Origin: Methanosarcina sp. MTP4 | Lineage (GTDB): Archaea > Halobacteriota > Methanosarcinia > Methanosarcinales > Methanosarcinaceae | Assembly (NCBI RefSeq): GCF_000970045.1 | Contig: NZ_CP009505.1 | Coordinates: forward strand, 682,001 to 746,000 | Direction: 5' to 3' | Length of the DNA stretch: 64,000 nucleotides | In this document: piece by piece, positions 1 through 13,788 of the stretch | Numbering within the stretch: the stretch's first letter is position 1 | How the letters are laid out: each line of letters begins with the position of its first letter | Translations under genes and position numbers: made by a program | Notes under the pieces: model-generated | What the model was told of the DNA's origin: nothing | Databases searched by the model: none | Seen by the model: the letters and a program-made list of their open reading frames with translations, nothing else

Positions 1-725
1 AGACCTATGTCCCCCCGAAAGCCGTTGCAAAGATCCCCATGGGAGAAGCCCTCAAGCAGACCTTCGGTGCCGGAATGAAGTTCTGGCCGATTGCCCTCTG
101 GTTCTTCTTCATGTACGGAAGCCTCATGGTCTACCAGGGTCTCTGGGCGGGTCCTTTCTTCAGGGACGTGCTCGGCTGGGAGAAGACAACCTATGCAAGT
201 GTCCTCTCTTTCGTTGCTGTTGGTATGGTCTTCGGGTGCCCGATTGCCGGTTACCTCTCGGATAAGGTGCTTAAGTCCAGGAAAAAAGTCCTGCTCGCAG
301 GCACTGCCGTGTACATCGTGATCTGGGCAGTTATCTGGTCTCAGGCAGGAAACATTACAAGCACTACGGCATACTCCGCGATCCACTTCCTCTTCGGATT
401 CTTCGGTGGGTTCTTCGTGGTCTCCTATGCCCAGGTAAAGGAATGGTTCCCCGCAGCAATTGTCGGGACTGCAACCGGTGCATACAATATCTTCCCCTTC
501 CTCGGCGGAGCACTCTTCATGACCCTGACGGGGAAGATGATGGCAGTTTCCGCAGGAGCCACTGCAACCGTAGGTCAGTACAAATCTGTCTGGTTCCTTA
601 TGCTTGTATGCATGGTCTTTGCCTTCGTCTGCCTCTCTATTTCAAAAGAGAGGGGTGCCGAAGAGGCCGTTGCACCTGCTGAAGTCACTGACAAGAGTGA
701 CTCCCCTTCAAGCTCGAAGCAGTGA
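1..725 (+). CDS. mtpP: MFS transporter MtpP, copy 1 (5' end outside window)
   Basis: This is the C-terminal half of a 12-helix major facilitator superfamily transporter; the reading frame is already open at base 3 and the start lies beyond the left edge. The visible 228 residues from the Met at 39 align without gaps to the C-terminal half of the complete copy at 7504-8871, and I count 22 substitutions, mostly conservative (Ile/Val/Leu) and clustered in the hydrophilic tail. By family knowledge (mtpCAP-msrH of M. acetivorans) the likely role is uptake of methylmercaptopropionate or a similar methylated sulfur compound; transport has not been shown here. Its presence implies that a second mtpCA pair lies just left of the window. 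Confidence 0.85.
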   Translation, partial: TYVPPKAVAKIPMGEALKQTFGAGMKFWPIALWFFFMYGSLMVYQGLWAGPFFRDVLGWEKTTYASVLSFVAVGMVFGCPIAGYLSDKVLKSRKKVLLAGTAVYIVIWAVIWSQAGNITSTTAYSAIHFLFGFFGGFFVVSYAQVKEWFPAAIVGTATGAYNIFPFLGGALFMTLTGKMMAVSAGATATVGQYKSVWFLMLVCMVFAFVCLSISKERGAEEAVAPAEVTDKSDSPSSSKQ

Positions 726-765
726 TAACTACCAGGCAATTCCTGAAAAATAAATGTTAATCCGT

Positions 766-797
766 CCCACTCCAAAAAGGGAGTGGGGCACTTTTTA
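766..797 (+). terminator. Hairpin terminator after mtpP copy 1
   Basis: Arms CCCACTCC (766-773) and GGAGTGGG (780-787) enclose an A-rich loop and are followed by GCAC and a T run. It lies 40 bases after the mtpP stop and is well placed to end the transcript. Confidence 0.6.
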
Positions 798-800
798 AAT

Positions 801-1255
801 GCTAAACTCGGTCATACTTGATTCAAAAACGGATGGAAAAACGGTTCAAGTTCAATTAAAAAACGTTGCTAAAATCGGTCAAAGTTGATTCAAAAACGGA
901 TGGGAAAACGGTTCAAGTTCAATTAAAAAACGTTGCTAAAATCGGTCAAAGTTGATTCAAAAACGGATGGGAAAACGGTTCAAGTTCAATTAAAAAACGT
1001 TGCTAAAATCGGTCAAAATTGATTCAAAAACGGATGTAAAAACGGTTCAATTTCAATCAAAAAACGTTGCTAAACTCGGTCGAAGTTGATTCAAAAACGG
1101 ATGTAAAAACGGTTCAATTTCAATCAAAAAACGTTGCTAAACTCGGTCAAAGTTGATTCAAAAAATGGATGTAAAAACGGTTCAATTTCAATCAAAAACG
1201 GATGGAAAAAAGGGTTCAAGTTCAATCAAAAAACGGTTGTGAAAATGGGTTGAAT
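801..1255. repeat. 67-bp tandem repeat array, about six copies
   Basis: GATTCAAAAACGGATG recurs at 820, 887, 954, 1021, 1088 and 1155, an exact 67-base period, with degenerate half-units after 1200. Every unit contains AACGGTTCAA. There are no unique spacers, so this is not CRISPR. The array sits in the same place after mtpP as the shorter-period array after copy 2 (8951-9254), and both share the AACGGTTCAA core. Role unknown. Confidence 0.9.
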
Positions 1256-1469
1256 TTTTTCCCTTCTATCTTTCAAATCCGCATAAACCTCCACATGAAA
1301 CCAAAAAAATCTCCACTCAAATAAATACTCCAACAATCCTCCAAAATAATATGTCAACACTGGACAACTCTCCATGCGAGTCAATCCCCAACAAAACCTC
1401 CAAAATTCTGAAGCGTATGGAGAAATCCTACCCCTTCATCCCCTGCTAACTTCAAAACCCTTTAAGATC

Positions 1470-2135
1470 CCATATTAAAGATAAAAGGTTCTTTGCTGCT
1501 TTTCGGGAGCTTCCTCCTGAAATGTGGAAAACTCAAAAAACGTTGAGTTCTCTTAGAGTGTCCGATGTACTTGTGCAATTTGTGCTTTGTATGTCTGGAA
1601 AACCATCAAAGAGCCAGTTTACACTTCCTTTTTCCAGAAAGGGAGTTATACCAATAAAATGCCCTGGAAACCATATAGGTCATGACGAGAACCTTTTCGG
1701 TCTCTGAAAGTACCTTCGGATACCTACAAAGAGGTTTCCGGGCTGATTTATCACACTGATAACAGTGCCTTCCATAACCCTCTCTCAAAAAGGCATTGTT
1801 GTCATATACCCCAAAAGTAAGTAAAAGACCTCCAATGTCCTTTGCAACTGCATTTTTGCCATTTATGCCGTTGCACGGGTCGAACATTCCCAAAAGTGAG
1901 TAAAGACCTGCAATATCCTGTGCAATTGCATTTTTGCCATTTATGCCGTTGCACGGGTCGAACATTCCCAAAAGTAAGTAAAGACCTGCAATATCCTGTG
2001 CAATTGCGTTTTTGCCATTTATGCCGTTGCACGGAGTTTGTATCTGATCGGGAAGCCCAGGTTCCGAGCCTGCTTCTTTTACCTCAAGGTTTCTCCTTTT
2101 CCCCTAGCGGTGAAGGAAGGTCTCGGAACATGGCT
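1470..2135. other. Conserved non-coding block upstream of msrH copy 1
   Basis: Stretches at 1480-1730 and 1800-2130 are clearly related to 9565-9770 and 10010-10190 downstream of the second mtpP, for example GGTTCTTTGCTGCTTTTCGG, ACACTTCCTTT and CTGATCGG-AAGCCC. No frame is conserved between the two, so the conservation reflects shared origin and perhaps RNA or regulatory function, not protein. Confidence 0.6.
1810..2036. repeat. 78-bp tandem repeat, three copies
   Basis: CCCAAAAGT(A/G)AGTAAA recurs at 1810, 1889 and 1967. Each unit ends in TTTGCCATTTATGCCGTTGCA. The equivalent place next to msrH copy 2 (10020-10100) holds a single unit, so the triplication happened in this copy or was lost in the other. 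Open frames through it on both strands are repeat artefacts. Confidence 0.85.
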
Positions 2136-3193
2136 TCTTGATACGATAGCAGATACCTTTTCACTCCTAATCTTCTTGTGAGCATTGCTCAATTAGAAAT
2201 ATTACATAGCTACGGCTTTGTATATCCATCTTCTAAGTTACCGTTGCAGGTAGCTCAATAGCTGGAGTCTTTTTAATTTTTTCTAGTTTTTCCTCAATTC
2301 CAACAAAATCCTAATATTTCATCCGAATTTGAGTAAACCAATCTCCTTATTTTAGGAATGTTTATTCATCCAGACAACAACTTCTGAATCTTTTTTTAAC
2401 AAATGCCTGTTTTTGTGGAAATTTTCATTAGCTTCCGCTACAGGTTTCAAGTTTAGATAATAAGTTTCGTATTCTCATCTAACCTTATTCATATTGGAAT
2501 CTTGCTCTCATTAAAGGTGAAAATCCTTTCCATTTACCAGTACTGAAACACTGTTTGTTGAAATAAGTAATAATTTATAACAAAAATTAGTTAGGAATCT
2601 ATCGGTTTTGAATGATCTTGCTTTGTCTACGATATCACCTGTAAAAGAAAATATCTGTTCCATTGTATGAAAGTACGATGTGAACTTTCATTTTTTTGTG
2701 CCTGCAATCCGGGAATTTCATGTGCGTTTTTTTGAAAATAAGACCTTCATTTTTTTTAATTTGAAGATGTGGAATGAACATGCTCCGTTGCTTGTAGCGG
2801 CGTGAACAAGTGCAATTTTGATAATATGATCCATCTAACTTGCCATTCAAAGAAGTGGTCAAAAAAAGTTTCAAGCAACCCTATTTTTATAGTGCCTCTC
2901 TCGCCATAACTCCTATTGCAATCGATTTTTTCCATTTAATTGTCCCGGCTGGCACAAGAATTCCATCGTTTAGCAGCTTGAAACTTTGAGTTTTTAATTT
3001 TTAATCGTGATGAATCAACAGTAAATAATTAATAGAAAATTATTTCATATATCAAAGTAGATATAATATAACTAAAATAATATCTGCGTTCTCACAATTT
3101 GTCAACTGGAACGTTTCTTTATGTGCAACGCCGATACTTCCCTGAATAAGAATCTCCTTTGAATAAGATTTCTATGTTTCCTGGTGATTGAGA
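2136..3193. other. Non-coding region upstream of msrH copy 1
   Basis: No open frame here has a ribosome binding site or protein-like composition. The last 170 bases resemble the region before msrH copy 2. The AT-rich block at about 3021-3085 (TTCATATATCAAAG, then TAGATATAATATAAC) is shared with 10639-10710 and is the likely core promoter. Confidence 0.5.
3021..3085 (+). promoter_or_regulatory. Putative msrH promoter block
   Basis: An AT-rich block with TATA-like TCATATATC and GATATAATATAA is conserved with the block at 10639-10710, 110-150 bases upstream of each msrH start. The exact transcription start is unknown. Confidence 0.35.
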
Positions 3194-4078
3194 GTGGACT
3201 CATCTAACCTTATTAATACAATATTGCTATCCGAAAAAAGAAAAAATGTACTGGTCTTGTTGCTGAAAGAGGGACCCAAGAACATAGATGAAATCAAAGA
3301 TGAACTTGATGTCAGTGCAAGTGCTTTGATGCCTCAGATAAAGAAGCTCCTCAAATGGGACCTGCTTATTTATGACTCCGATGAGGATATCTATATGTTA
3401 TCTGATATGGGGTCTTTACTAATTGAAAAAATAGCCGATTTCCTCAATATAGCTGATATTTATGTAGAGAACCGAAAGTATTGGAAAATCCGGGACCTCA
3501 GTGAAATCCCCTCCCATATAAGGAAAAGTATGGGTAACCTTGTGCACTCTGAACTGCTGGAGGCAAACAGGGATTGCCTTTTTGAGTTCCCACCCACTTT
3601 CGTGCAAAATGTTCTGGACTCAAAGTACGTAATGATGGTCAGTTCGACTTTCCAGCCCCAAACAGTCAACATATTTTCAAAGCTTTTGCGCAATAATTCA
3701 AAAGTTTCCTGGGTATTTACGGCGCAAATTTTAGATAAGTACCTGGAGGACTTTCCGGACCAGTTTAATAACTTCCTTACCCACGAAAATATGGACATTT
3801 ATGTGAGTAGCGGGCATATTGGCCCTCTTGCCATGGTTGTTACGGACAGGTTTATGGGCATGTGGCTTTTTGACAAGAACAGAAGGTTCGACGGGACTAC
3901 CCTAATAAATTATGAGGAGAGCGCCCTCAACTGGGGGCGGGAACTTTTCACTTACTATTCACAGATCTCTAACCGTGTCTACATCGACCCGGAGACAAGA
4001 AAGATGAAGATAACGGGAATGACATCAAAAAATCAAAAGGACTCTGATCCCGATCTTTGTCGTTTTTCCCTTTTTTAA
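3194..4078 (+). CDS. msrH: MsrH-type transcriptional regulator, copy 1
   Basis: A 294-residue regulator of the Methanosarcina Msr family: an N-terminal ArsR-like winged helix (roughly residues 5-75, with SEKRKNVLVLLL and LDVSASALMPQIKKLLKWDL) followed by a FilR1/DUF1724-type sensor domain ending near GRELFTYYSQISN. Family knowledge: msrH activates mtpCAP during growth on methylmercaptopropionate. I place the start at GTG 3194 because GGTGAT sits 5 bases upstream; TTG 3188 in the same frame overlaps that site. Oddity: compared with copy 2, a one-base deletion near codon 278 replaces the ending NITKANKF with a longer unrelated tail, which may or may not impair it. It is followed by a third, broken msrH copy. 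Confidence 0.8.
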   Translation: MDSSNLINTILLSEKRKNVLVLLLKEGPKNIDEIKDELDVSASALMPQIKKLLKWDLLIYDSDEDIYMLSDMGSLLIEKIADFLNIADIYVENRKYWKIRDLSEIPSHIRKSMGNLVHSELLEANRDCLFEFPPTFVQNVLDSKYVMMVSSTFQPQTVNIFSKLLRNNSKVSWVFTAQILDKYLEDFPDQFNNFLTHENMDIYVSSGHIGPLAMVVTDRFMGMWLFDKNRRFDGTTLINYEESALNWGRELFTYYSQISNRVYIDPETRKMKITGMTSKNQKDSDPDLCRFSLF

Positions 4079-4189
4079 TGTTTCACATCCCGGCTCTAAT
4101 TACCCGGTCAGGGATCAGTCAGATTCAGTTTTTATCTGGGATTGAAGTTGGTCAATTGTTTTTTGTCTCCATGTCTTGCAATGTTGATA

Positions 4190-4352
4190 TTCGGATGGGA
4201 CTGCCCTGATCAGTTATGAGGCCAGAGCCCTTAAATGGGGAAGGGAACTTTTCACTCATTACTCAAACATCTCGAACCTTGCTTACATCGATCCGGACAC
4301 CGGGAAAATGGGGGTCAAGGGGTGCAATATCACGAAGGCAAACAAGTTCTGA
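4190..4352 (+). pseudogene. msrH 3'-end remnant
   Basis: About 52 codons matching the very C-terminus of MsrH copy 2 (TALISYEARALKWGRELF, then YIDPDTGKMGV, ending NITKANKF and TGA). The first codons carry an extra base relative to copy 2, and nothing upstream encodes the rest of the protein. The preceding 100 bases also resemble the sequence that follows msrH genes, so this looks like the scar of a deleted third regulator between tandem locus copies. Confidence 0.85.
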
Positions 4353-5418
4353 ACATGCCTTTTTATTCCGGGATTCATATTTAAAAAAAAGTTGCCTGTA
4401 AAACACAGGCAATGTGGTTAATTTGGCATGAAAGTACCGCCGATTTCGCACACCGGGTCCTCATTCAAAATTTCTGGTTATATTGGGACTCAACATCACG
4501 TTTTTCTCCTGCTAAATTGATGACAGGGTCCGGAATGTGAACTTGAGGATGCTACGTCCTCACGTAATGTTAGTGTCCTCCTTCCCTACAATAGCAAATA
4601 TTTCGCTAATTATTGAGATTCGCTCATCAACTGAGAATGCTTCACTTTCAACAATCTTCCTCTTTCAACAATCTTCCTCTTTTGAACTTCTCACCTAGCA
4701 CTTGACGTAATAGACATTAATGGTCTGAACAAAAATTATTCTCTTCTCATCGAATCTTTATTCGAAAAACTTGAGAGAATAGGTGTAAAGCCTGTTAGAT
4801 ACCTGAAAATCCGTACTTCCTAAATCCAGTTCTTTATATTCGGTTGTTATAAATAGAAACTTATATATTCATTATGTATGTCTACATGTTTCACGTGCAT
4901 AAATTTTATATATTATAAACAGTTTTACTGCATTGTCTCACTCAATAACAAGCCTTTACGTCTTAATCCCCGCGAAAAGTAGCCGTCCGACATATAAGCT
5001 TTTTGGGAACTGGGGTTTCTGATCTCTCTATTCCTGGTGCTCCCCTTTCGAAAATCAACGGCGTTGATTCTGTAAACAGCGTGACGTTACTATTAACACT
5101 GTTTATTTTGCAAGCCTCTTGTTTTAATTAGCAACCATCTAATTTTTGAGTCGGATGTCTTCACATGGGGTTCTTTAATTTTGCACCGATTATTAATTAA
5201 ATAGAATATTATTGATTTTTTAATATTCGTGTTTATTTTTGTAGGGGCGCTGCTGAATCACTCTGCTTCGTTTTTCCGATGACGGTTAGTATATCTATTT
5301 TTGAAACGTATAACTGATTGCTTTCTGTGAGATATGGAGAAGATCCGGATCCTTCCCCTGCATACCTTTTCAGATGAATATGTGCAGTAGCATATGTAAA
5401 AGAATCAGAGGTGCAAAA
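4353..5418 (+). other. Long leader region of the mtpCAP operon
   Basis: One kilobase without a supported gene. It holds two TATA-like core promoters near 4855-4922. If either is used, the mRNA has a leader of roughly 480-540 bases, which fits the long 5' leaders known for Methanosarcina methyltransferase operons. MsrH probably acts somewhere here; I see no obvious operator palindrome. Confidence 0.4.
4855..4922 (+). promoter_or_regulatory. Tandem TATA/BRE-like elements upstream of mtpC
   Basis: GAAACTTATATATTC (from 4857) has the purine-rich BRE plus TATA form of an archaeal core promoter; TTTTATATATTATAAAC follows about 50 bases later. Assignment to mtpC is by position only. Confidence 0.35.
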
Positions 5419-6210
5419 ATGGATGATTTACCGGAAGAAGTCCAGGAACTGATGGAAGCCCTGGACGAAGCTGCAGAAGATGAAGAGGAGGATGAAGTAG
5501 AGGAACTCGCTCAGAAACTTCTGGACTCAGGGGTTGACATGAAACCCGTCACCCTCGAAAAACTCGCTCTCCTTGTCATGGATGGCGAAGAAGAAATGAC
5601 TGTGGGCTGGACAAGAGCAGCTCTCAAGTTCGGGCTGGACCCATTTGAAATCCTGCTCAAGGGACTCGCTGAAGGCATGAGCCTGATCGGTAAAAAGTAC
5701 GAAAATGGAGAGGCATTTGTGCCCCAACTCCTGATCGCTTCTACTGCAATGTACTCCGGGATGGATATCATTGCTCCCTTCATGAAGCAGGAAGAAGGCG
5801 GTACAAAACCCGCAACTGTGGTCATTGGTACCGTTGAAGGCGATGTCCACGACATCGGAAAGAGCCTTGTAAAAACTCTGCTCAGTGCAAACGGCTTCAA
5901 CTGTGTGGATCTTGGAAATGACGTGCCGAGTACCCAGTTCATTGAGGCAGCAAAAGAGAGTAAGGCAACAGCAGTTTCAATGAGCACGCTGATGACAACA
6001 ACCATGGCCGAGATGCCCAAAGTCGTCAAGATGCTCGAAGATGAAGGCATAAGGGACAAGGTTATGGTGATGGTTGGCGGAGCCCCCATTACAACTCAGT
6101 ACGCGGCAGAGATCGGTGCTGATGTATCTCCTAAAGATGCTGCCAGTGCAGCAAGCTGGCTGAAGAGTGCCATTTTTGACTTCCCCTCGGAAGCTGAGAG
6201 ATGGGGCTAA
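5419..6210 (+). CDS. mtpC: Corrinoid protein MtpC
   Basis: A 263-residue corrinoid protein of the MtaC/MtbC/MetH-like family. A strongly acidic N-terminal stretch (residues 1-35) precedes a helical cap domain (about 40-125) and a Rossmann-type B12 domain (about 130-250). The lower-axial cobalt ligand is His144 in DVHDIG, followed by the usual SMSTLMTTTM and MVGGAP segments. It should accept a methyl group and donate it to coenzyme M through MtpA. ATG 5419 is preferred over ATG 5374 because AGAGGTG lies 5 bases before it. It is the first gene of a C-A-P operon; the order corrinoid, methyltransferase, MFS matches mtpCAP and not M. barkeri mtsA-mtsB, where the methyltransferase gene comes first. 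Confidence 0.85.
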   Translation: MDDLPEEVQELMEALDEAAEDEEEDEVEELAQKLLDSGVDMKPVTLEKLALLVMDGEEEMTVGWTRAALKFGLDPFEILLKGLAEGMSLIGKKYENGEAFVPQLLIASTAMYSGMDIIAPFMKQEEGGTKPATVVIGTVEGDVHDIGKSLVKTLLSANGFNCVDLGNDVPSTQFIEAAKESKATAVSMSTLMTTTMAEMPKVVKMLEDEGIRDKVMVMVGGAPITTQYAAEIGADVSPKDAASAASWLKSAIFDFPSEAERWG

Positions 6211-6297
6211 GTTTTCTTTATAAATTTCTCATAATCTGATTGAGAATTGTGGATATAAAAACAATCAAGTCAAAAACAAAAAAAAGGAGCTAAAAAA

Positions 6298-7332
6298 ATG
6301 GTAGCTGAAATGACCTCCCTGGAAAGGGTTCTTGCAATGCTCAACAGGAAACCTGTTGACAGGGTTCCGGTAATCACCGGTTCTACAATGGTCAAAGAGT
6401 ATATCGAGAAGAGCGGTGGAGTTTGGCCTGATTATCATTCCAACGCAGAAATGATGATCAATGTCTCAGGGCTTATGCATACGGATGCCGGAGTCGACAA
6501 CGTGGTCGCACCTTTCGGCATGTTCGTCGAATCTATTGCCCTCGGGCTTGAGGTTAAGATGGGTAAGATTGACATCCAGCCCTCTGTCCGGAGCTTTTTC
6601 AAAAAGCCTGAAGAAGTTAATTATGATAATTTCCTTGAAGACAAGTTCGTCAAGAACACTCTCGATTCCATCAAACTCGCAAAGGAAAGATACCCCGATG
6701 CAGCTGTCACTGCTTTCCTTGTTGCCCCTATTACCCTGGCAGGAGACCTGATGGGTGCTGAAAATCTCTCTGTGCTCAGCATCAAGTGCCTGCAGAAGGA
6801 AAAACAGATGGAAAAGATGAAGGAATGGGTCGCAGTTGCCCTCGAGATCAACAAGATCTATGCCGAGGCCTGTGCCGAAGCCGGAGCTGACCTCCTGTAC
6901 TATTCCGATGCATCCGCATCCCCGAACCTTGTGATGCCCGAGTTCTACTATGAAGTAGGGGTCCCGGCAGATAAGGAGATCGGAGACTACTCTCACAAAC
7001 TCGGATGCCCCTGGGAACTCCACATCTGTGGTGACACAACCCCGATTATTGAGGGTATGGCAGCCACTGGTGCAGACTGTCTCAGTGTCGAACAGGTAGT
7101 TAATATGGAGGAAGCTACAAAGATTGCAGGTGATGTGCCTGTGGTCGGGAACGTGACTCCGCTCCTTATGGTTGAAGGCACCGAAGAACAGATCATCGCT
7201 GAAACCAGGAAGGCTCTTGACGGAGGAGCAAAGGCAAGCATGCTTGGCTGCGGAACTCCACCTCACAGTACCTCTGACAGGCTCAAGACCTGGGTTAAGG
7301 CAGCAACCGACTGGTCCGCCGAAAACCTCTGA
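6298..7332 (+). CDS. mtpA: Methylcorrinoid:coenzyme M methyltransferase MtpA
   Basis: A 344-residue zinc methyltransferase of the MtaA/MtbA/MtsA (uroporphyrinogen decarboxylase-fold) family. The zinc ligands are visible as His242 and Cys244 in ELHICGD and Cys318 in LGCGTPP. It transfers the methyl group of methyl-MtpC to coenzyme M; in the M. acetivorans system MtpA and MtpC are required for methylmercaptopropionate use. AAGGAG sits 8 bases before the ATG, and the gene starts 87 bases after mtpC, so cotranscription is likely. Substrate identity here is inferred from gene order and the neighbouring MsrH regulator, not proved. Confidence 0.85.
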   Translation: MVAEMTSLERVLAMLNRKPVDRVPVITGSTMVKEYIEKSGGVWPDYHSNAEMMINVSGLMHTDAGVDNVVAPFGMFVESIALGLEVKMGKIDIQPSVRSFFKKPEEVNYDNFLEDKFVKNTLDSIKLAKERYPDAAVTAFLVAPITLAGDLMGAENLSVLSIKCLQKEKQMEKMKEWVAVALEINKIYAEACAEAGADLLYYSDASASPNLVMPEFYYEVGVPADKEIGDYSHKLGCPWELHICGDTTPIIEGMAATGADCLSVEQVVNMEEATKIAGDVPVVGNVTPLLMVEGTEEQIIAETRKALDGGAKASMLGCGTPPHSTSDRLKTWVKAATDWSAENL

Positions 7333-7503
7333 TCCGGCGAAACCGTTGTGTGTAAAAAATTTACTATAAACAAATAGTTCGTGGTATCTTCCTGAAAAAG
7401 GAGCGGTGCCTGAATAAAGGGTTTCCTTCTACAGGGACCCAAAATTTCAGGTGCCCACATTTTCCACTTATATTCTGAGTTATTTTCATTGGGAGCGATA
7501 GCT

Positions 7504-8871
7504 ATGGGAATTAATTTAGAAAAAATGAATGAAGTGATGAAATATCGCTGGGTAGTATTTGTTATCCTGGCTTTTGCATACTTTTTCGTATACTTCCATA
7601 GGGTGTCAACCGCAGTGGTTGCATCTGACATTATGAGCACATTCGGAGTAGGGGCCGCATCTGTTGGGCTTCTGGGCTCTGCTTACTTCTATGCATACAC
7701 AGCAATGCAACTCCCGAGTGGGATCCTCAGTGACAGCTGGGGTGTTAAAAAGACAGCCGGGGTCTTTACCCTTGTGGCTGCCGCCGGTGCAATCCTTTCA
7801 GGTGTTGCAACCAGCTTTACGATGATATTGATCGGAAGGCTGCTTATCGGTGTCGGTGTGGCAATGGTCTACATCCCCGTGATGAAGATGCTTTCCATCT
7901 GGTTCAAGAAGAACGAGTTTGCCTCCATGTCCGGTATCCTGCTCGCTATAGGTAACATCGGCGCTTTGAGTGCAGCAGGTCCTCTGGCCTTTCTGGCTGT
8001 AATGCTCGGGGACTGGCAGAGGGTTTTCCTGATCCTTGGTGTATTCTCCGTCCTGCTGGCCGTAGTCATCCTGATGATGGTTAAAGATAAGCCTGAAGAC
8101 ATGGGTTGTCCCTCTATCCCCGAAATCGAAGCCTATGAAAAAGGTGAGACCTATGTCCCCCCGAAGGCTGTTGCAAAGATCCCCATGGGAGAAGCCCTCA
8201 AGCAGACCTTCGGTGCCGGAATAAAGTTCTGGCCCCTTGCTATCTGGTTCTTCTTCATGTACGGAAGTCTCATGGTCTACCAGGGTCTCTGGGCAGGTCC
8301 TTTCTTCAGAGACGTGCTCGGCTGGGAGAAGACAACATACGCAAGTGTTCTCTCTTTCGTCGCCATCGGTATGATCTTCGGCTGCCCGATTGCCGGTTAC
8401 CTCTCTGACAAGGTGCTTAAGTCCAGGAAAAAGGTCCTGCTCGCAGGCACTGCTGTGTACATCGTGCTCTGGGCAGTTATCTGGTCTCAGGCAGGAAACA
8501 TTACAAGCACTACGGCATACTCCGCGATCCACTTCCTCTTCGGGTTCTTTGGTGGGTTCTTCATTGTGTCTTATGCCCAGGTAAAGGAATGGTTCCCAGC
8601 CTCAATCGTAGGGACTGCAGTTGGTGCATACAACATCTTCCCCTTCCTCGGCGGAGCAATCTTCATGACTCTGACAGGGAAAATGATGGCAGTTTCCGCA
8701 GGGGCTACTGCTACCGTAGGTCAGTACAAGTCTGTCTGGTTAATGATGCTTGTATGCATGATCTTTGCCTTCGTCGCCCTCTTAGTTTCAAAAGAGAAAG
8801 GCGCAGAAAAGGCTGCGGCACCTGTAGAAGTTGCTGACAAGAGTGACTCTCCGGCAAGCTCGAAGCAGTAA
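7504..8871 (+). CDS. mtpP: MFS transporter MtpP, copy 2 (complete)
   Basis: A 455-residue major facilitator superfamily transporter with about 12 membrane helices; the loop after helix 2 reads LSDSWGVKKT, a form of the MFS signature, and the equivalent loop of the second half reads LSDKVLKSRKK. A central hydrophilic loop lies around residues 200-235. The hydrophilic C-terminus is rich in Ala, Lys and Ser. The start is ATG 7504 behind GGGAG; a TTG at 7489 is in frame but lacks a site. As third gene of mtpCAP it likely imports methylmercaptopropionate or a related methylated thioether. The C-terminal half is nearly identical to the partial gene at 1-725. Confidence 0.85.
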   Translation: MGINLEKMNEVMKYRWVVFVILAFAYFFVYFHRVSTAVVASDIMSTFGVGAASVGLLGSAYFYAYTAMQLPSGILSDSWGVKKTAGVFTLVAAAGAILSGVATSFTMILIGRLLIGVGVAMVYIPVMKMLSIWFKKNEFASMSGILLAIGNIGALSAAGPLAFLAVMLGDWQRVFLILGVFSVLLAVVILMMVKDKPEDMGCPSIPEIEAYEKGETYVPPKAVAKIPMGEALKQTFGAGIKFWPLAIWFFFMYGSLMVYQGLWAGPFFRDVLGWEKTTYASVLSFVAIGMIFGCPIAGYLSDKVLKSRKKVLLAGTAVYIVLWAVIWSQAGNITSTTAYSAIHFLFGFFGGFFIVSYAQVKEWFPASIVGTAVGAYNIFPFLGGAIFMTLTGKMMAVSAGATATVGQYKSVWLMMLVCMIFAFVALLVSKEKGAEKAAAPVEVADKSDSPASSKQ

Positions 8872-8917
8872 AAGCTGACAGGTAATACCTGACCAATAAG
8901 TAACGGTTAATCTGTTA

Positions 8918-8945
8918 CCCCCTGAAGGGGAGTGGGGCATTTTTA
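8918..8945 (+). terminator. Terminator after mtpP copy 2
   Basis: A short CCCC-TGAA-GGGG hairpin (919-930 of this kilobase) followed by GAGTGGGGCA and a T run. The downstream part matches the terminator of copy 1, but the left arm has diverged. Confidence 0.5.
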
Positions 8946-8950
8946 ATGCC

Positions 8951-9254
8951 AAAAACGGTTCAATATTCAAAAAACGGTTCAATATTCAAAAACGGTTCAA
9001 TATTCAAAAACGGTTCAATATTCAAAAAACGGTTCAATATTCAAAAACGGTTCAATATTCAAAAACGGTTCAATATTCAAAAACGGTTCAATATTCAAAA
9101 AACGGTTCAATATTCAAAAAACGGTTCAGATTCAAAAACGGTTCAATATTCAAAAAACGGTTCAGATTCAAAAACGGTTCAGATTCAAAAACGGTTCAGA
9201 TTCAAAAACGGTTCAGATTCAAAAACGGTTCAGATTCAAAAAACGGTTCAAAGG
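8951..9254. repeat. 18-19-bp tandem repeat array
   Basis: About 16 units of AAACGGTTCAATATTCAA or the variant AAACGGTTCAGATTCAA. The core AACGGTTCAA is the same as in the 67-bp array after mtpP copy 1, so the two arrays share an origin but have been remodelled with different unit lengths. A 115-codon frame through the array is a repeat artefact. Confidence 0.9.
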
Positions 9255-9295
9255 GTTGAATTTTTCCCTGAATATCTCCCCAAATTTGCATAAAT

Positions 9296-9372
9296 CTCCA
9301 ATAAAACCTCCAATAAAACCTCCACTAAAATCTCCAATAAAACCTCCAATAAAACCTCCACTAAAACCTTTA
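9296..9372. repeat. 12-bp CTCCAATAAAAC repeats
   Basis: Six to seven units of CTCCAATAAAAC or CTCCACTAAAAC follow the larger array. A decayed version (CTCCACATGAAACC, CTCCACTCAAATAAA) is seen at 1289-1350 after the first array. Confidence 0.75.
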
Positions 9373-9559
9373 TTTAAATTTCAACCCTTAATAACCCTCT
9401 ATAAACCAATCCCCCAACAAAACCCCTATAATTCCCGGTTCACACCACAACTGTGAAATATTCGGAGTTAAACGTGAATTAATAGCTGAATCGTATGGAA
9501 ATGGTTGAAACCTCAATTCCCTGATAACCCCAAACCCTTAAAAAACCCCAAAAAATTTA

Positions 9560-10817
9560 CGATAAAGGTTCTTCGCTGCTTTTTCGGGAGCAGTTCTTTC
9601 CCAAAACGTGCAAAAAAAGATCGAAAAAACGTGGAGTTCCCCCAAAACGTGTCTGAATGTATGTGCAATATGTGTGTTGTATGTTCCCGGGAAAACCGGT
9701 GAAGACCCTGTTCACACTTCCTTTCCTCAGAAAGGGAGATGATACCGAATGAAATGCTCGGGAAACCTGATATATAATACGGTGGAGGCTTTTTCGGCCC
9801 CTGAAAGTATCCTCGGATACGAGCCTGCCCTGGACTACTCTTCCAGAAGGGTTTTTTTCAGCGTTTCCGCTGTAAATGCGTCCTCCGTGGGTTACGGCGT
9901 CGGGGCTGCATCTCCATGCAGTATGCCCAGCGTTCGCAACTGGTTTCCGGGCTGATTAATCACGCTGATGACAGTGCTTGTCCATATCCCTCTCCTCAAG
10001 ATGGCACTGTTATCAAATATCCCCCAGAAGTGAGTAAAAGACCTGCAATACCCCCTTTGAAGCTGCATATTTGCCATTTTATGCTGCTGCAAGGGATGTT
10101 TTGTCTGATCGGAAAGCCCGGTTACGGGGCTGTTCCATTAACCGAAAAGGGTTCGCCATTTCCCGATCGGTGAAGGAAAGTCTCCGGTCGGGACTTTCCG
10201 AGATGACGGCAGAAACCTCTCCATTCCTAACCTCCAGGTTAGAGTGGTCCATAACTCTCTTCAATGGCTTCAAGACAAACTTTGCCTTTCTCTGCAGTCT
10301 TTTTTTCTTGGTACCTGCAGCCGAATCGCATGTCTTGAAGCCTTATGTTTTCTTTTTCATGTTCTCTTCCTATTTTCCCGTTTCCTGAACCCTCCAGATC
10401 GGAAAGATCTCCATTTTTATAATTTATCATTTTCTTTTTGATTTATCTTTTTTTCAAGGGCCAATAGTATAGAGGTTTCTTGCTTCTGTTTTTGATTTAG
10501 AAGTGTTCCTATTTTTTGAGGAGGGGATTTTTCTCTATATTTAATCTTTCTGTTTTTATTGTCTAATTATCTGGCTACTTTTGGAAAATAAATATCGAGC
10601 GCTTTTAACATACTTTAATTAACTTTTTGATACAGGTTAAAATAATAAATTATTAATAGCAAAATTACTTCATATATTAAAACTGATTATATTGTAAATA
10701 AAATAATAAACCTATTTTCCCGTGTTGATATTTGGGACGGTGCTTAGGTGTAGTACTGTTATTCTTTCAAGACGAATTTCCTTTGAAGAATATTCATATG
10801 TTCCCTGGTGATTGAGA
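9560..10817. other. Non-coding block upstream of msrH copy 2
   Basis: Paralogous to 1470-3193, but shorter by roughly 450 bases because it has only one 78-bp unit and lacks part of the spacer. No supported gene. The AT-rich promoter-like block at 10639-10710 (TTCATATATTAAAACTGATT) is shared with msrH copy 1. Confidence 0.5.
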
Positions 10818-11672
10818 GTGGACCCCTCCTGCCTTATTAAAACAATATTCCTATCCGAAAAAAGAAAAAATGTACTGGTCTTGTTGCTAAGAGAAGGCCC
10901 CAAGAATATAGATGAAATCAAAGACGCACTTGACTTCAGTGCAAGTGCTTTGATGCCTCAGATAAAGAAACTCCTCAAATGGGACCTGCTTACTTACGAT
11001 CCCAATGAAGATTTATACAAGCTGTCTGACATGGGGGCTTTGATAGTTGAAAAAATAGAAGAATTTCTCAATATTATAAACATCTATGCGGAGAATCATG
11101 AGTACTGGGAAACCCGGGACCTTAGTGAAATCCCCTACCATATGAGAAAACGTATCGGTAACCTTGTGCACTGTGAACTGCTGGAAGCAAACAGGGATTG
11201 TTTATTTGAGTTTCATCCAACCTTCGTGGAAAATGTTCTGAATTCCAAGTACGTAATGATGGCCAGTTCGACTTTCCAGCCTCATACAGTCAGCATATTT
11301 TCCAAGCTTCTCCGTAATAATTCAAAAGTTACCTGTGTGTTTACGGAGCAGATTTTCAACAAATATCTGGAAGATTACCCGGAACAGTTTAACAGCTTCC
11401 TTTCCCATGAAAATATGAACGTCTCCATGCGTAGCGGGCACATCGGCCCCCTTACCCTGGTAGTCACGGACAGGTTCATGGGCCTGTGGCTTTTTGATAA
11501 GAACGGAAGGTTCGACGGGACTACCCTGATAAGTTATGAGGCCAGTGCACTTAAATGGGGTCGAGAACTCTTTACTTACTATTCAAGCATCTCCAACCTT
11601 GTCTACATCGACCCGGACAGCGGGAAAATGGAGATCACGGGGTATAACATCACAAAGGCCAACAAATTCTGA
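10818..11672 (+). CDS. msrH: MsrH-type transcriptional regulator, copy 2
   Basis: A 284-residue Msr-family regulator: N-terminal ArsR-like winged helix (about residues 5-75) and a C-terminal FilR1/DUF1724-type domain. Family knowledge: MsrH is a constitutively expressed activator of mtpCAP. Of the two copies this has the standard ending (NITKANKF), shared with the remnant at 4190-4352. GTG 10818 is preferred over TTG 10812 because GGTGAT precedes it by 5 bases. It follows the complete mtpCAP operon on the same strand, with nearly 2 kb of repeat-rich sequence between, so it is probably transcribed alone. Confidence 0.85.
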   Translation: MDPSCLIKTIFLSEKRKNVLVLLLREGPKNIDEIKDALDFSASALMPQIKKLLKWDLLTYDPNEDLYKLSDMGALIVEKIEEFLNIINIYAENHEYWETRDLSEIPYHMRKRIGNLVHCELLEANRDCLFEFHPTFVENVLNSKYVMMASSTFQPHTVSIFSKLLRNNSKVTCVFTEQIFNKYLEDYPEQFNSFLSHENMNVSMRSGHIGPLTLVVTDRFMGLWLFDKNGRFDGTTLISYEASALKWGRELFTYYSSISNLVYIDPDSGKMEITGYNITKANKF

Positions 11673-12139
11673 TCCCGGATTTTTTAATTTTTTAATTTTC
11701 CCTTTTTTAAGTTTCACATTCCGGCTCTAATAACTCAGTCAGAGTTGTTTTTCAGCCGGAAACACTGGTGGTCAATTGAGTTTTTGGCCTTTTTAATTAA
11801 CAGTGATAACAATTGTCTTGTGTGAAATATGACTTCAGTCGGCTCCCTTAACCTGGTACAGGGCAACTTTTCCCTCGAAAAAAAGAACCTTAGACGATGT
11901 ATGATGAAAAATATTCTATGTGTTTAGCTGAATAGAAGTTAATAATTTTTAGTCGTTCTCGGATCAGGACTCACAGATCTGCAATTCGCAGCTGCTATTT
12001 GTATGTATAAATTAAATGTGTTTTTGAAAATTAAAGTCTGAAGTTGCCTGCAAATAAGGCAACTTTGGACAGCTCTTAATTTATGTTCTTTAATATTGTT
12101 CTAAAGAGTGATTTTTAGGTTATTCCCTTGCATATAATA
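11673..12139. other. Gene-free spacer after msrH copy 2
   Basis: The first 100 bases match the sequence following msrH copy 1 and the remnant (GTTTCACATTCCGGCTCTAA). Beyond that I see no gene. Confidence 0.5.
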
Positions 12140-12346
12140 TCATTCATTGGTCGTGGAGCTAAGGCCCCCGGCAATCCCCAGTGCAATAAGCGAGACTACC
12201 AGGGGGATTAAAATCACCATTAACAAATTTCCTTCCTCGGCATATTTGAACATGAAACTGAACAGAACAGTGCTCAGCAGTATCCCGATAGCTAGCAGGC
12301 AGAGAACTGGCGCCCCGTACAGGTTTTCAATCGTATTGCTCATCAT
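12140..12346 (-). CDS. Small two-helix membrane protein
   Basis: A 68-residue hypothetical protein with two hydrophobic stretches (about residues 12-34 and 41-61) joined by a short charged loop (KYAEEGN). GGGGGAAG lies just upstream of the ATG, which supports real translation. Not recognised; it stands alone. Confidence 0.55.
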   Translation of the reverse strand: MMSNTIENLYGAPVLCLLAIGILLSTVLFSFMFKYAEEGNLLMVILIPLVVSLIALGIAGGLSSTTNE

Positions 12347-13006
12347 CTTCCCCCCGTTTAATTGTGGTCTGTTTTTCAGCAGAACACGTTTCCTTTTTGG
12401 AAACTTCCCTACATATAATAAAATTGAGACAAATGTATATAAAACTTTAGGCTAAGTGTAATTTTTTTTTCATTCGGGAGGAGTTTTTGTTGTTCCCATT
12501 TTAAGCCTTTTTATCCTGCCTGGAATATCTTGCCTGAAGTCGAAATTTTAAACAACATCTAATTTTAGCTTTCTCCCATGGGCTTGTCCAATGCGTATGA
12601 GGCTGTTTTTGTCTTCAAAATTTTTACCACTAAAATAAATTTATACCTATCATTTTAAATAAATTTTTTTTATAGTTAAATTAATATAAGATGTGCTTTA
12701 ACTAAATAAATGGGAGTATTTATTTGAAAAGAACCGGTACCACCGTGGGGATATTTATTTTAAATGATCCGGAACTGCATCCTGGTGTTGAGTTGTGGTT
12801 TTCGGGAACGTTGCGTTCTAATGATCCCGTATTGGTCCGGAAGTTTTCAATCTCAACAAGATCTTAACGGTTAATGTGGGGGAAATTATTTGGGAAGAAT
12901 TTGACGTATTATTTAAAAACAGAATAAATAAATGTATTTAAATTTAAATCAAAATTATAACTGCAAATTGACATTAATTCAAACTGATCAGTTCAGGGGG
13001 AACTAT
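12347..13006. other. AT-rich spacer without a convincing gene
   Basis: A 47-codon frame (12724-12867) begins with a TTG behind GGGAGTATT in the same style as the microprotein genes just downstream, but its composition is not convincing. Nothing else is supported. Confidence 0.4.
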
Positions 13007-13188
13007 TTGGAAAAGAGGGGGTCCAAATCTTACTATCTGGATGCAATTCTTACGCAGTAATTTTTACGCAAATTGTGCTTCTGATGGTCCTGTACGTTCT
13101 TTGTGTGTTCATCGTCCTTAAGATACGCCAAAAACTGTTTTTGGGATCTGGAAGCCTGTTGTCGGAAAGCGGGCCGGATAAATTATAG
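13007..13188 (+). pseudogene. Microprotein paralog 1, broken by 11-bp duplication
   Basis: TTG 13007 behind AGGGGG opens a frame reading KSYYLDA, then stops. Removing ATTCTTACGCA (13046-13056), an imperfect copy of the following ATTTTTACGCA, restores the frame KSYYLDA-VIFTQIVLLMVLYVLC, which matches the membrane segment of the paralogs at 13211 and 13597. A tandem slip therefore broke this gene. Confidence 0.6.
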
Positions 13189-13210
13189 GGAAATTCAATG
13201 GGGGGGTATT

Positions 13211-13327
13211 TTGGCGAAGTTAAGGGTAAAAAGCTGGGTCGTGGATCTGGTTTTTATGCATGTGATGTTCGTGGTGATCCTGTATATTGTCTACATGTAT
13301 ATTGTGCCAACAATAGTTCCGATATGA
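13211..13327 (+). CDS. Single-helix microprotein, paralog 2
   Basis: A 38-residue protein: short basic N-terminus (AKLRVKSW), then one membrane helix (VVDLVFMHVMFVVILYIVY) and a Pro-containing tail (VPTIVPI). It starts with TTG behind GGGGGGTATT, the same arrangement as paralog 1. The pattern SxxxDxVFxxVxxxxxLYxVxxxxVP is shared with the neighbours. Function unknown; such short single-helix proteins often regulate a larger membrane complex, but nothing here says which. Confidence 0.5.
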   Translation: MAKLRVKSWVVDLVFMHVMFVVILYIVYMYIVPTIVPI

Positions 13328-13596
13328 TCTATACTTGCCCAGCTTTAAAATCTGGAATTTTTTGCCTCAAAATGAAAGGCAATAACCAAATAGAATTCTG
13401 AAAACTAAAGCTGGATGAGTATAAGAAGGAATGGAAATTCATGTTAAAAAGGATCATCAGGCCAAAGAAGATGTAAAAAATAGATTACTAAAAAAATAGA
13501 TTACTAAAAAAATAAAATTACTAAAAAAATAAAATTACTAAAAATATGGGGAATATGAAGTCAGAGAATATGATGTCCTATGAAGGGGGTAATTGC

Positions 13597-13788
13597 ATGG
13601 GAGAAGGAATGAAAAGTCAGGTTGCAGCCAATAAAGATAAGAAAAGAATGAAAACTCAGGTTGAAGGAGATTCTCAGGTTAGCGGAAGCCAGTCCAAGTC
13701 TTACTACCTGGATGTGGTTTTTATTCAGGTCTTGCTTTTGCTGCTCCTGTACGGGGTCTGCGTGCTTGTGGTGCCAAAACTTTCTTGA
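13597..13788 (+). CDS. Single-helix microprotein, paralog 3
   Basis: A 63-residue protein with a basic, Lys/Gln/Ser-rich N-terminal half and one C-terminal membrane helix (YYLDVVFIQVLLLLLLYGV) ending VLVVPKLS. GAAGGGGG precedes ATG 13597; an upstream ATG at 13546 in the same frame has no clear site. The helix and the SYYLD start of it match paralogs 1 and 2, so the three form a small tandem family. Confidence 0.55.
   Translation: MGEGMKSQVAANKDKKRMKTQVEGDSQVSGSQSKSYYLDVVFIQVLLLLLLYGVCVLVVPKLS

Follow-up and report, generated by a model that had tools for sequence, protein, structure and literature searches.

A putative mtp-derived operon with exchanged methyltransferase genes beside the mtpCAP-msrH locus of Methanosarcina sp. 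MTP4

The mtpCAP-msrH locus of Methanosarcina acetivorans (MA_4164-66 plus msrH) is connected with the use of methylmercaptopropionate in two published accounts (PMC7374477, PMC11619418), the former of which, a review, gives the mtpCAP genes of Methanosarcina sp. MTP4 as MSMTP_RS03110-20. Among the other described systems that are built around UroD-type methyltransferase domains, MtsA and MtsD/F/H act on methylated sulfur compounds (PMC7374477, PMC10418091), and the MtoB/MtvB O-demethylases and the CdmB dehalogenase function with a corrinoid protein. The sulfur-acting UroD-fold corrinoid methyltransferases possess a His-Cys-Cys zinc site that is missing in the O-demethylases (PMC10418091). Here we describe the mtp region of Methanosarcina sp. 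MTP4, located at the beginning of a 64,000-nucleotide window (C1:682001-746000, where C1 is the single 4,211,468-base contig of this genome), together with the sequence immediately upstream. The region encompasses two units, and the left one combines mtpP and msrH genes with a distinct set of corrinoid methyltransferase genes for which we coined the provisional names mtxC, mtxB and mtxA (Table 1).

The right unit is orthologous to the mtpCAP-msrH locus of M. acetivorans in content, order and flanks, with all four genes intact. The left unit shares with the M. acetivorans locus the promoter core and orthologs of mtpP and msrH, in the same order, but mtxC-B-C-B-A stands in the place of mtpC-mtpA, and all that is left of mtpA is a broken 3' end. 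Judging from sequence comparison, the left unit is probably a duplicated mtp operon in which the catalytic genes were replaced by an mtx cassette, with the promoter, mtpP and msrH retained, and which is proposed to serve the use of a methylated sulfur compound. Under this scenario, a second mtpCAP-msrH copy would have arisen beside the original one, mtpC and most of mtpA in that copy would have been replaced by mtxC-mtxB-mtxA from another corrinoid methyltransferase system, and a further mtxC-mtxB pair would have settled just upstream of the cassette, whereas the old mtpC promoter, mtpP and msrH would have stayed in place.

Table 1. Features of the left and right units (window positions, unless prefixed with C1)
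Feature	Position	Strand	Length	Description
mtxC1	C1:675449-676114		221 aa	corrinoid protein
mtxB1	C1:676101-677201		366 aa	UroD-family methyltransferase
captured mtpC promoter block	C1:677699-677900			between mtxB1 and mtxC2
mtxC2	C1:678257-678898		213 aa	corrinoid protein
mtxB2	C1:678915-680015		366 aa	UroD-family methyltransferase
mtxA	C1:680032-681042		336 aa	MtaA-like coenzyme M methyltransferase
mtpA 3' remnant	C1:681149-681314			between mtxA and mtpP1
mtpP1	C1:681343-682725 (3' end = window 1..725)	+	460 aa	left MFS transporter gene, complete
left tandem array	800..1198	.		67-nt units x 5.9
left conserved non-coding block	1408..2173	.		contains 78-nt tandem unit x 2.9 at 1810-2034
msrH1	3188..4078	+		FilR1-type regulator, fast-evolving, C-terminus altered
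third msrH, 3' fragment	4194..4351	+		82% to msrH2, rearrangement scar
mtpC promoter/leader block	5188..5389	+		27-nt core 5276-5302; copied upstream of mtxC2
mtpC	5419..6210	+		corrinoid protein; conserved start 5419 (MDDLPEEV), probable start, matching relatives; longer ORF 5374-6210, open from ATG 5374
mtpA	6298..7332	+		UroD-fold methyltransferase, MMPA type by orthology
mtpP2	7489..8871	+		MFS transporter, slow-evolving copy
right tandem array	8950..9251	.		18-nt units x 16.8
right conserved non-coding block	9486..10233	.		member of dispersed repeat family
msrH2	10812..11672	+		regulator; ortholog of relatives' single msrH; 97.5% to genome G001

The origin of the left unit can be traced through its junctions. 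The 202-nt block between mtxB1 and mtxC2 is 78% identical to the mtpC promoter/leader and includes a 27-nt core, CCGANNNCGGTTANTATATCTATTTTT, that hardly varies among the regions upstream of mtpC in Methanosarcina. When up to 3 mismatches are allowed, this core has two sites in the entire 4.2-Mb genome, one before mtpC and the other, without any mismatch to the pattern, before mtxC2, and the reversed control has none. Between mtxA and mtpP1, a 166-nt sequence shows 74% identity to the 3' end of mtpA, with the reading frame broken by 1-nt and 7-nt deletions, and the 3' fragment of a third msrH is located after msrH1, nearer msrH2. Because of the promoter block, the mtpA remnant and this third msrH end, the left unit appears to have once been an mtp copy extending from the promoter to msrH, and we read these scars as the traces of a likely exchange of mtpC and most of mtpA for mtxC2-B2-A.

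An earlier note, made from the window alone, had described the region as a tandem duplication of mtpCAP-msrH and had named the lack of mtpC and mtpA left of position 1 as fatal to that proposal. The part of it that stands is the duplication of mtpP and msrH within the lineage, which is supported by the trees, and these genes and the non-coding blocks are indeed repeated in the same order. However, the upstream sequence contains no mtpC and no intact mtpA, that is, the very lack named by the note, and other catalytic genes are found there. A simple tandem duplication of the complete locus is accordingly refuted for the present-day locus by the upstream sequence, which also rules out two intact mtp copies; highly improbable as a full account, it survives only as an ancestral stage, in which the mtpC promoter and the 3' end of mtpA, at least, belonged to the duplicated unit. 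The single mtp locus that the note ascribed to M. acetivorans was found there, and the other Methanosarcina have one copy as well. An assembly artifact is ruled out, given the 16-20% difference in DNA sequence between the copies and the independent occurrence of mtx genes at this site in another genome of the genus (G003).

The features on which the note relied, namely, the mtpP end (3-725), two msrH genes and mtpC-mtpA-mtpP, were all located, and the count of 22 differences over the last 228 residues of the MtpP copies proved exact. Over the full length, MtpP1 and MtpP2 differ in 44 of 460 positions (416/460 identical, 90%), and msrH1 is 76% identical to msrH2; the alignments of the mtpP and msrH segments are far above chance (E = 0). 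At the DNA level, the similarity is 84% from just before mtpP into the arrays, 72-82% in the non-coding blocks, which align piecewise with interruptions, and 80% for msrH and its upstream region. The two repeat arrays have the core CAAAAACGGTTCAA in common. The conserved non-coding block (window 9940-10280 and 1733-2173) is dispersed in the genome, where it has 11 partial matches, several of which adjoin methyltransferase or Msr-type regulator genes.

The mtx genes encode each of the three kinds of components (B, C and A) of the methanogen corrinoid systems, and MtxA is close to MtaA/MtbA. The B component is unlike the known families MtaB, MtmB, MtbB and MttB and instead belongs to a UroD-fold clade below all named NCBIfam cut-offs. 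Family searches identify both B12-binding domains in MtxC1 and MtxC2 and assign MtxB and MtxA to the UroD family, but phylogenetic analysis places these two in separate well-supported groups, both apart from MtpA. MtxA passes the cut-off of NF004889 (methylcobalamin:CoM methyltransferase; 378 versus 244 bits) and contains a His-Cys-Cys zinc site (H234, C236, C312) but scores below the NF040654 equivalog cut-off for MtaA in the strict sense (355 versus 400 bits), and MtxB1 and MtxB2 remain below the cut-off of TIGR01463, the MtaA/CmuA subfamily (172 and 178 versus 235 bits). The zinc ligands of MtxB (H256, C258, C338) are invariant in 12 of 12 aligned sequences, so that this protein combines the UroD fold with the His-Cys-Cys ligands characteristic of the S-methyltransferases of the UroD superfamily. 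The best match of the MtxB2 model (pLDDT 87.7) is 4ay7, the methylcobalamin:CoM methyltransferase of M. mazei (TM 0.82). Relatives of MtxB were detected, with strict cut-offs, in 4 of the 112 genomes of the family (in this genus and Methanofrustulum) and in 4 of 393 sampled genomes of the phylum, which add one genome. By these comparisons, MtxB is a rare, uncharacterized clade of predicted UroD-fold methyltransferases.

Given the retained His-Cys-Cys site of MtxB and the closest structural match to a CoM methyltransferase, our best guess for the substrate is a methylated sulfur or selenium compound. The Mts systems, which likewise rely on UroD-type domains, differ in that both transfers are carried out by one enzyme or fusion, whereas mtx encodes separate B and A enzymes (MtsA was compared by description). 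Alternatively, mtx could be an O-demethylase or dehalogenase system akin to Mto, Mtv or Cdm, with MtpP1 importing a methoxylated acid. Those systems also pair UroD-fold methyltransferases with a corrinoid protein, and Mto loci contain two MtoB genes along with an MFS transporter (PMC8630106). The comparison by size, zinc ligands and partner enzymes nevertheless disfavors methoxydotrophy: MtxB keeps the His-Cys-Cys ligands, whereas O-demethylases replace the Cys or are devoid of zinc (PMC10418091, PMC13222342), MtxB consists of 366 aa compared to 47-48 kDa for MtoB (PMC8630106), and MtxA is of the CoM methyltransferase type rather than an MtrH-like MtoA. More generally, MtoB/MtvB and CdmB are larger first methyltransferases that lack the His-Cys-Cys site and work with folate- or pterin-type acceptor enzymes, and the solved CdmB structure is absent among the matches listed for MtxB. 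We therefore consider this alternative decidedly unlikely.

If the left unit is a remodeled mtp operon, as we propose, MtpP1 would import a methylated compound, from which MtxB1 and MtxB2 would transfer the methyl group to the corrinoid proteins MtxC1 and MtxC2, and MtxA would then pass it to coenzyme M on the way to methane. At least mtxC2-B2-A might be switched on by MsrH1 through the captured mtp promoter. The direction of methyl flow, the regulation by MsrH1 and the substrate class are all inferred. The combination of a retained transporter and a retained promoter with new enzymes suggests that a different or additional substrate enters through MtpP1. The retention of MtpP with conservative changes suggests a small acid, probably one like methylmercaptopropionate or that compound itself. 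The earlier note had speculated that the copies diverged toward different substrates; the copies did diverge, and the guess gains support because the enzyme genes on the left were swapped, not because mtpP drifted. In M. acetivorans, limiting methyl-CoM reductase upregulates mtpCAP about 100-fold (PMC11267899); hence, if the captured promoter is functional, mtx should rise along with mtpCAP.

The ancestral arrangement is apparent from the relatives. The gene order hypF-DUF1699-coil gene-mtpCAP-msrH-DUF1699 is kept in M. acetivorans (G074) and in most of the relatives whose contigs reach so far. In the nearest relative, BM5 (L021), the sides of the coil gene and of mtpC are colinear with those in MTP4 but lie about 0.7 kb apart, compared to about 12.3 kb here; the coil gene is joined directly to mtpCAP, with a single mtpCAP-msrH and no insertion. 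In G003, mtxC1B1C2B2 and the promoter core occupy the same site. Two close mtpP genes are found only in MTP4 among the 112 genomes of the family, one other genome having a distant second mtpP.

In the phylogenetic trees, MtpP1 and MtpP2 form a group from which BM5 is excluded (support 92/89). MsrH1 belongs to the clade of the genus (98/96) and is placed outside the msrH2 copies from genomes G000, G001 and G003 (86/87). Both left proteins are on long branches. With G001 as the outgroup, the relative-rate counts (left:right) amount to 34:6 (MtpP) and 61:3 (MsrH); more distant outgroups give 23:11 to 26:9 and 49:9 to 51:7, respectively. The left mtpP and msrH do not drift freely but are subject to purifying selection, as indicated by the dN/dS values between the copies (0.14 and 0.18). 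The 8 changes unique to MtpP1 at otherwise invariant columns are conservative, and 23 changes are unique to MsrH1. The two MsrH copies share 91% identity over residues 41-62, which belong to the predicted DNA-binding part.

Several observations weigh against the proposed scenario in part or as a whole. The left copy may not have formed in place: the synonymous distance between the msrH copies (dS 0.67) exceeds that between msrH2 and its G001 counterpart (0.18), suggesting that the left msrH predates the split from BM5 or comes from another lineage. Thus, the composite of mtx, mtpP1 and msrH1 could have been built in a related, unsampled lineage and then have reached the common ancestor of MTP4 and G003 by introgression, through recombination at its mtp locus, with the same function. 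The position of MsrH1 outside the msrH2 copies fits such a history, as does the lack of any scar of a lost copy in BM5; for the mtpP pair, the corresponding distances are 0.35 and 0.30. Conversely, MtpP1 groups with MtpP2 without BM5, the fast evolution of MsrH1 could inflate the distances, and no donor genome was found among the 112 of the family. Introgression, to which we give somewhat less than an even chance, is a strong rival explanation with respect to where the composite arose, not to its nature. Also to be counted against the proposed scenario is the break of the G003 contig at the site: the assembly lacks everything from mtxA to mtpCAP, so that this genome cannot confirm the full composite. 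Furthermore, a hairpin-like sequence between mtxA and mtpP1 might split them into two transcripts, and mtxC1B1, being upstream of the captured promoter, needs another one. The hairpin and the broken mtpA remnant would be compatible with mtpP1 and msrH1 being bystanders, their neighborhood with mtx being only a relic of the duplication and mtx being served by another transporter and regulator; moreover, an mtxC-mtxA copy at C1:3.97 Mb works, if at all, without mtpP. Yet mtpP1 and msrH1 are intact and under purifying selection, and two genomes have kept the complete mtp promoter core before mtxC2, which makes the bystander explanation unlikely.

The locus at C1:3.97 Mb (L009, C1:3963000-3980000, positions 4980-12710) is a hybrid in which a different UroD methyltransferase, MtyB, is accompanied by copies of mtxC (95% aa identity) and mtxA (99%); two Msr-type regulators and a transporter of the amino-acid-permease type are encoded there as well. 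The match to mtxA extends across the broken remnant of mtpA, including its deletions, and because these were carried along, the mtxC and mtxA of the MtyB locus were most likely copied from the composite, or its ancestor, after the arrival of mtx. Cassette exchange appears to have occurred more than once in this genome.

The composite locus is a new arrangement of known kinds of parts with an uncharacterized methyltransferase clade at the center. It corrects the picture of simple gene duplication and presents a case of traceable operon remodeling in methylotrophic methanogens, with changing catalytic genes, a constant set of promoter, transporter and regulator, and junctions whose scars can still be read, suggesting a route by which methanogens acquire new substrates. 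Mtx is a concrete candidate system for an unassigned methyl-sulfur substrate, relevant to methane production from algal sulfur compounds. More tentatively, Mtx could represent a so far undescribed route of methanogenesis from a methylated sulfur (or selenium) compound that does not belong to the known Mts/Mtp set, new substrates being gained by cassette insertion into a duplicated operon that keeps its transporter, promoter and regulator. The MsrH1-MsrH2 pair offers a natural test of specificity shifts in these archaeal regulators.

The mtxC1-mtxB1 and mtxC2-mtxB2 pairs are 84% identical in DNA, and each is preceded by a related leader of about 350 nt (L007:5108-5449 and 7905-8257, where L007 is C1:670000-688000 and the window position is the L007 position minus 12001), with a partial copy at C1:1584527-1584656. 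The leader folds better than shuffled sequences (z -4.5), but only 2 of the 79 predicted pairs covary in an alignment of 4 sequences. No Rfam match was obtained in C1:674599-687499, which covers the mtx genes with their leaders, the left array, msrH1 and the mtpC promoter.

A second Mtx-like region (L071, C1:2521000-2540999) contains three MtxB-like, three MtxC-like and two MtxA-like genes along with genes for a PAS/GAF sensor protein and an S-layer protein, and this cluster is also present in L070 and L072, that is, in three genomes of the genus. A stand-alone second mtpA paralog (72% aa identity) without adjoining mtpC or mtpP is located at L008:7301-8341 (C1:2489301-2490341) and is also found in G001 and G003. 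Further variation of the mtp locus is seen in a metagenome-assembled genome (MAG) of another member of Methanosarcinaceae, where a MtaA gene that passes the equivalog cut-off lies between mtpP and msrH (L028:12074-13102). In MAGs from Methanomassiliicoccales and other groups (L032, L045, L046, L050), a UroD-fold methyltransferase gene from a different clade comes immediately after the gene for an MtpP-family transporter. Finally, a 47-69-nt segment is repeated three times at window 13061-13777 with 64-71% identity, the last copy being located within a small open reading frame (13546-13788) whose product has a hydrophobic tail.

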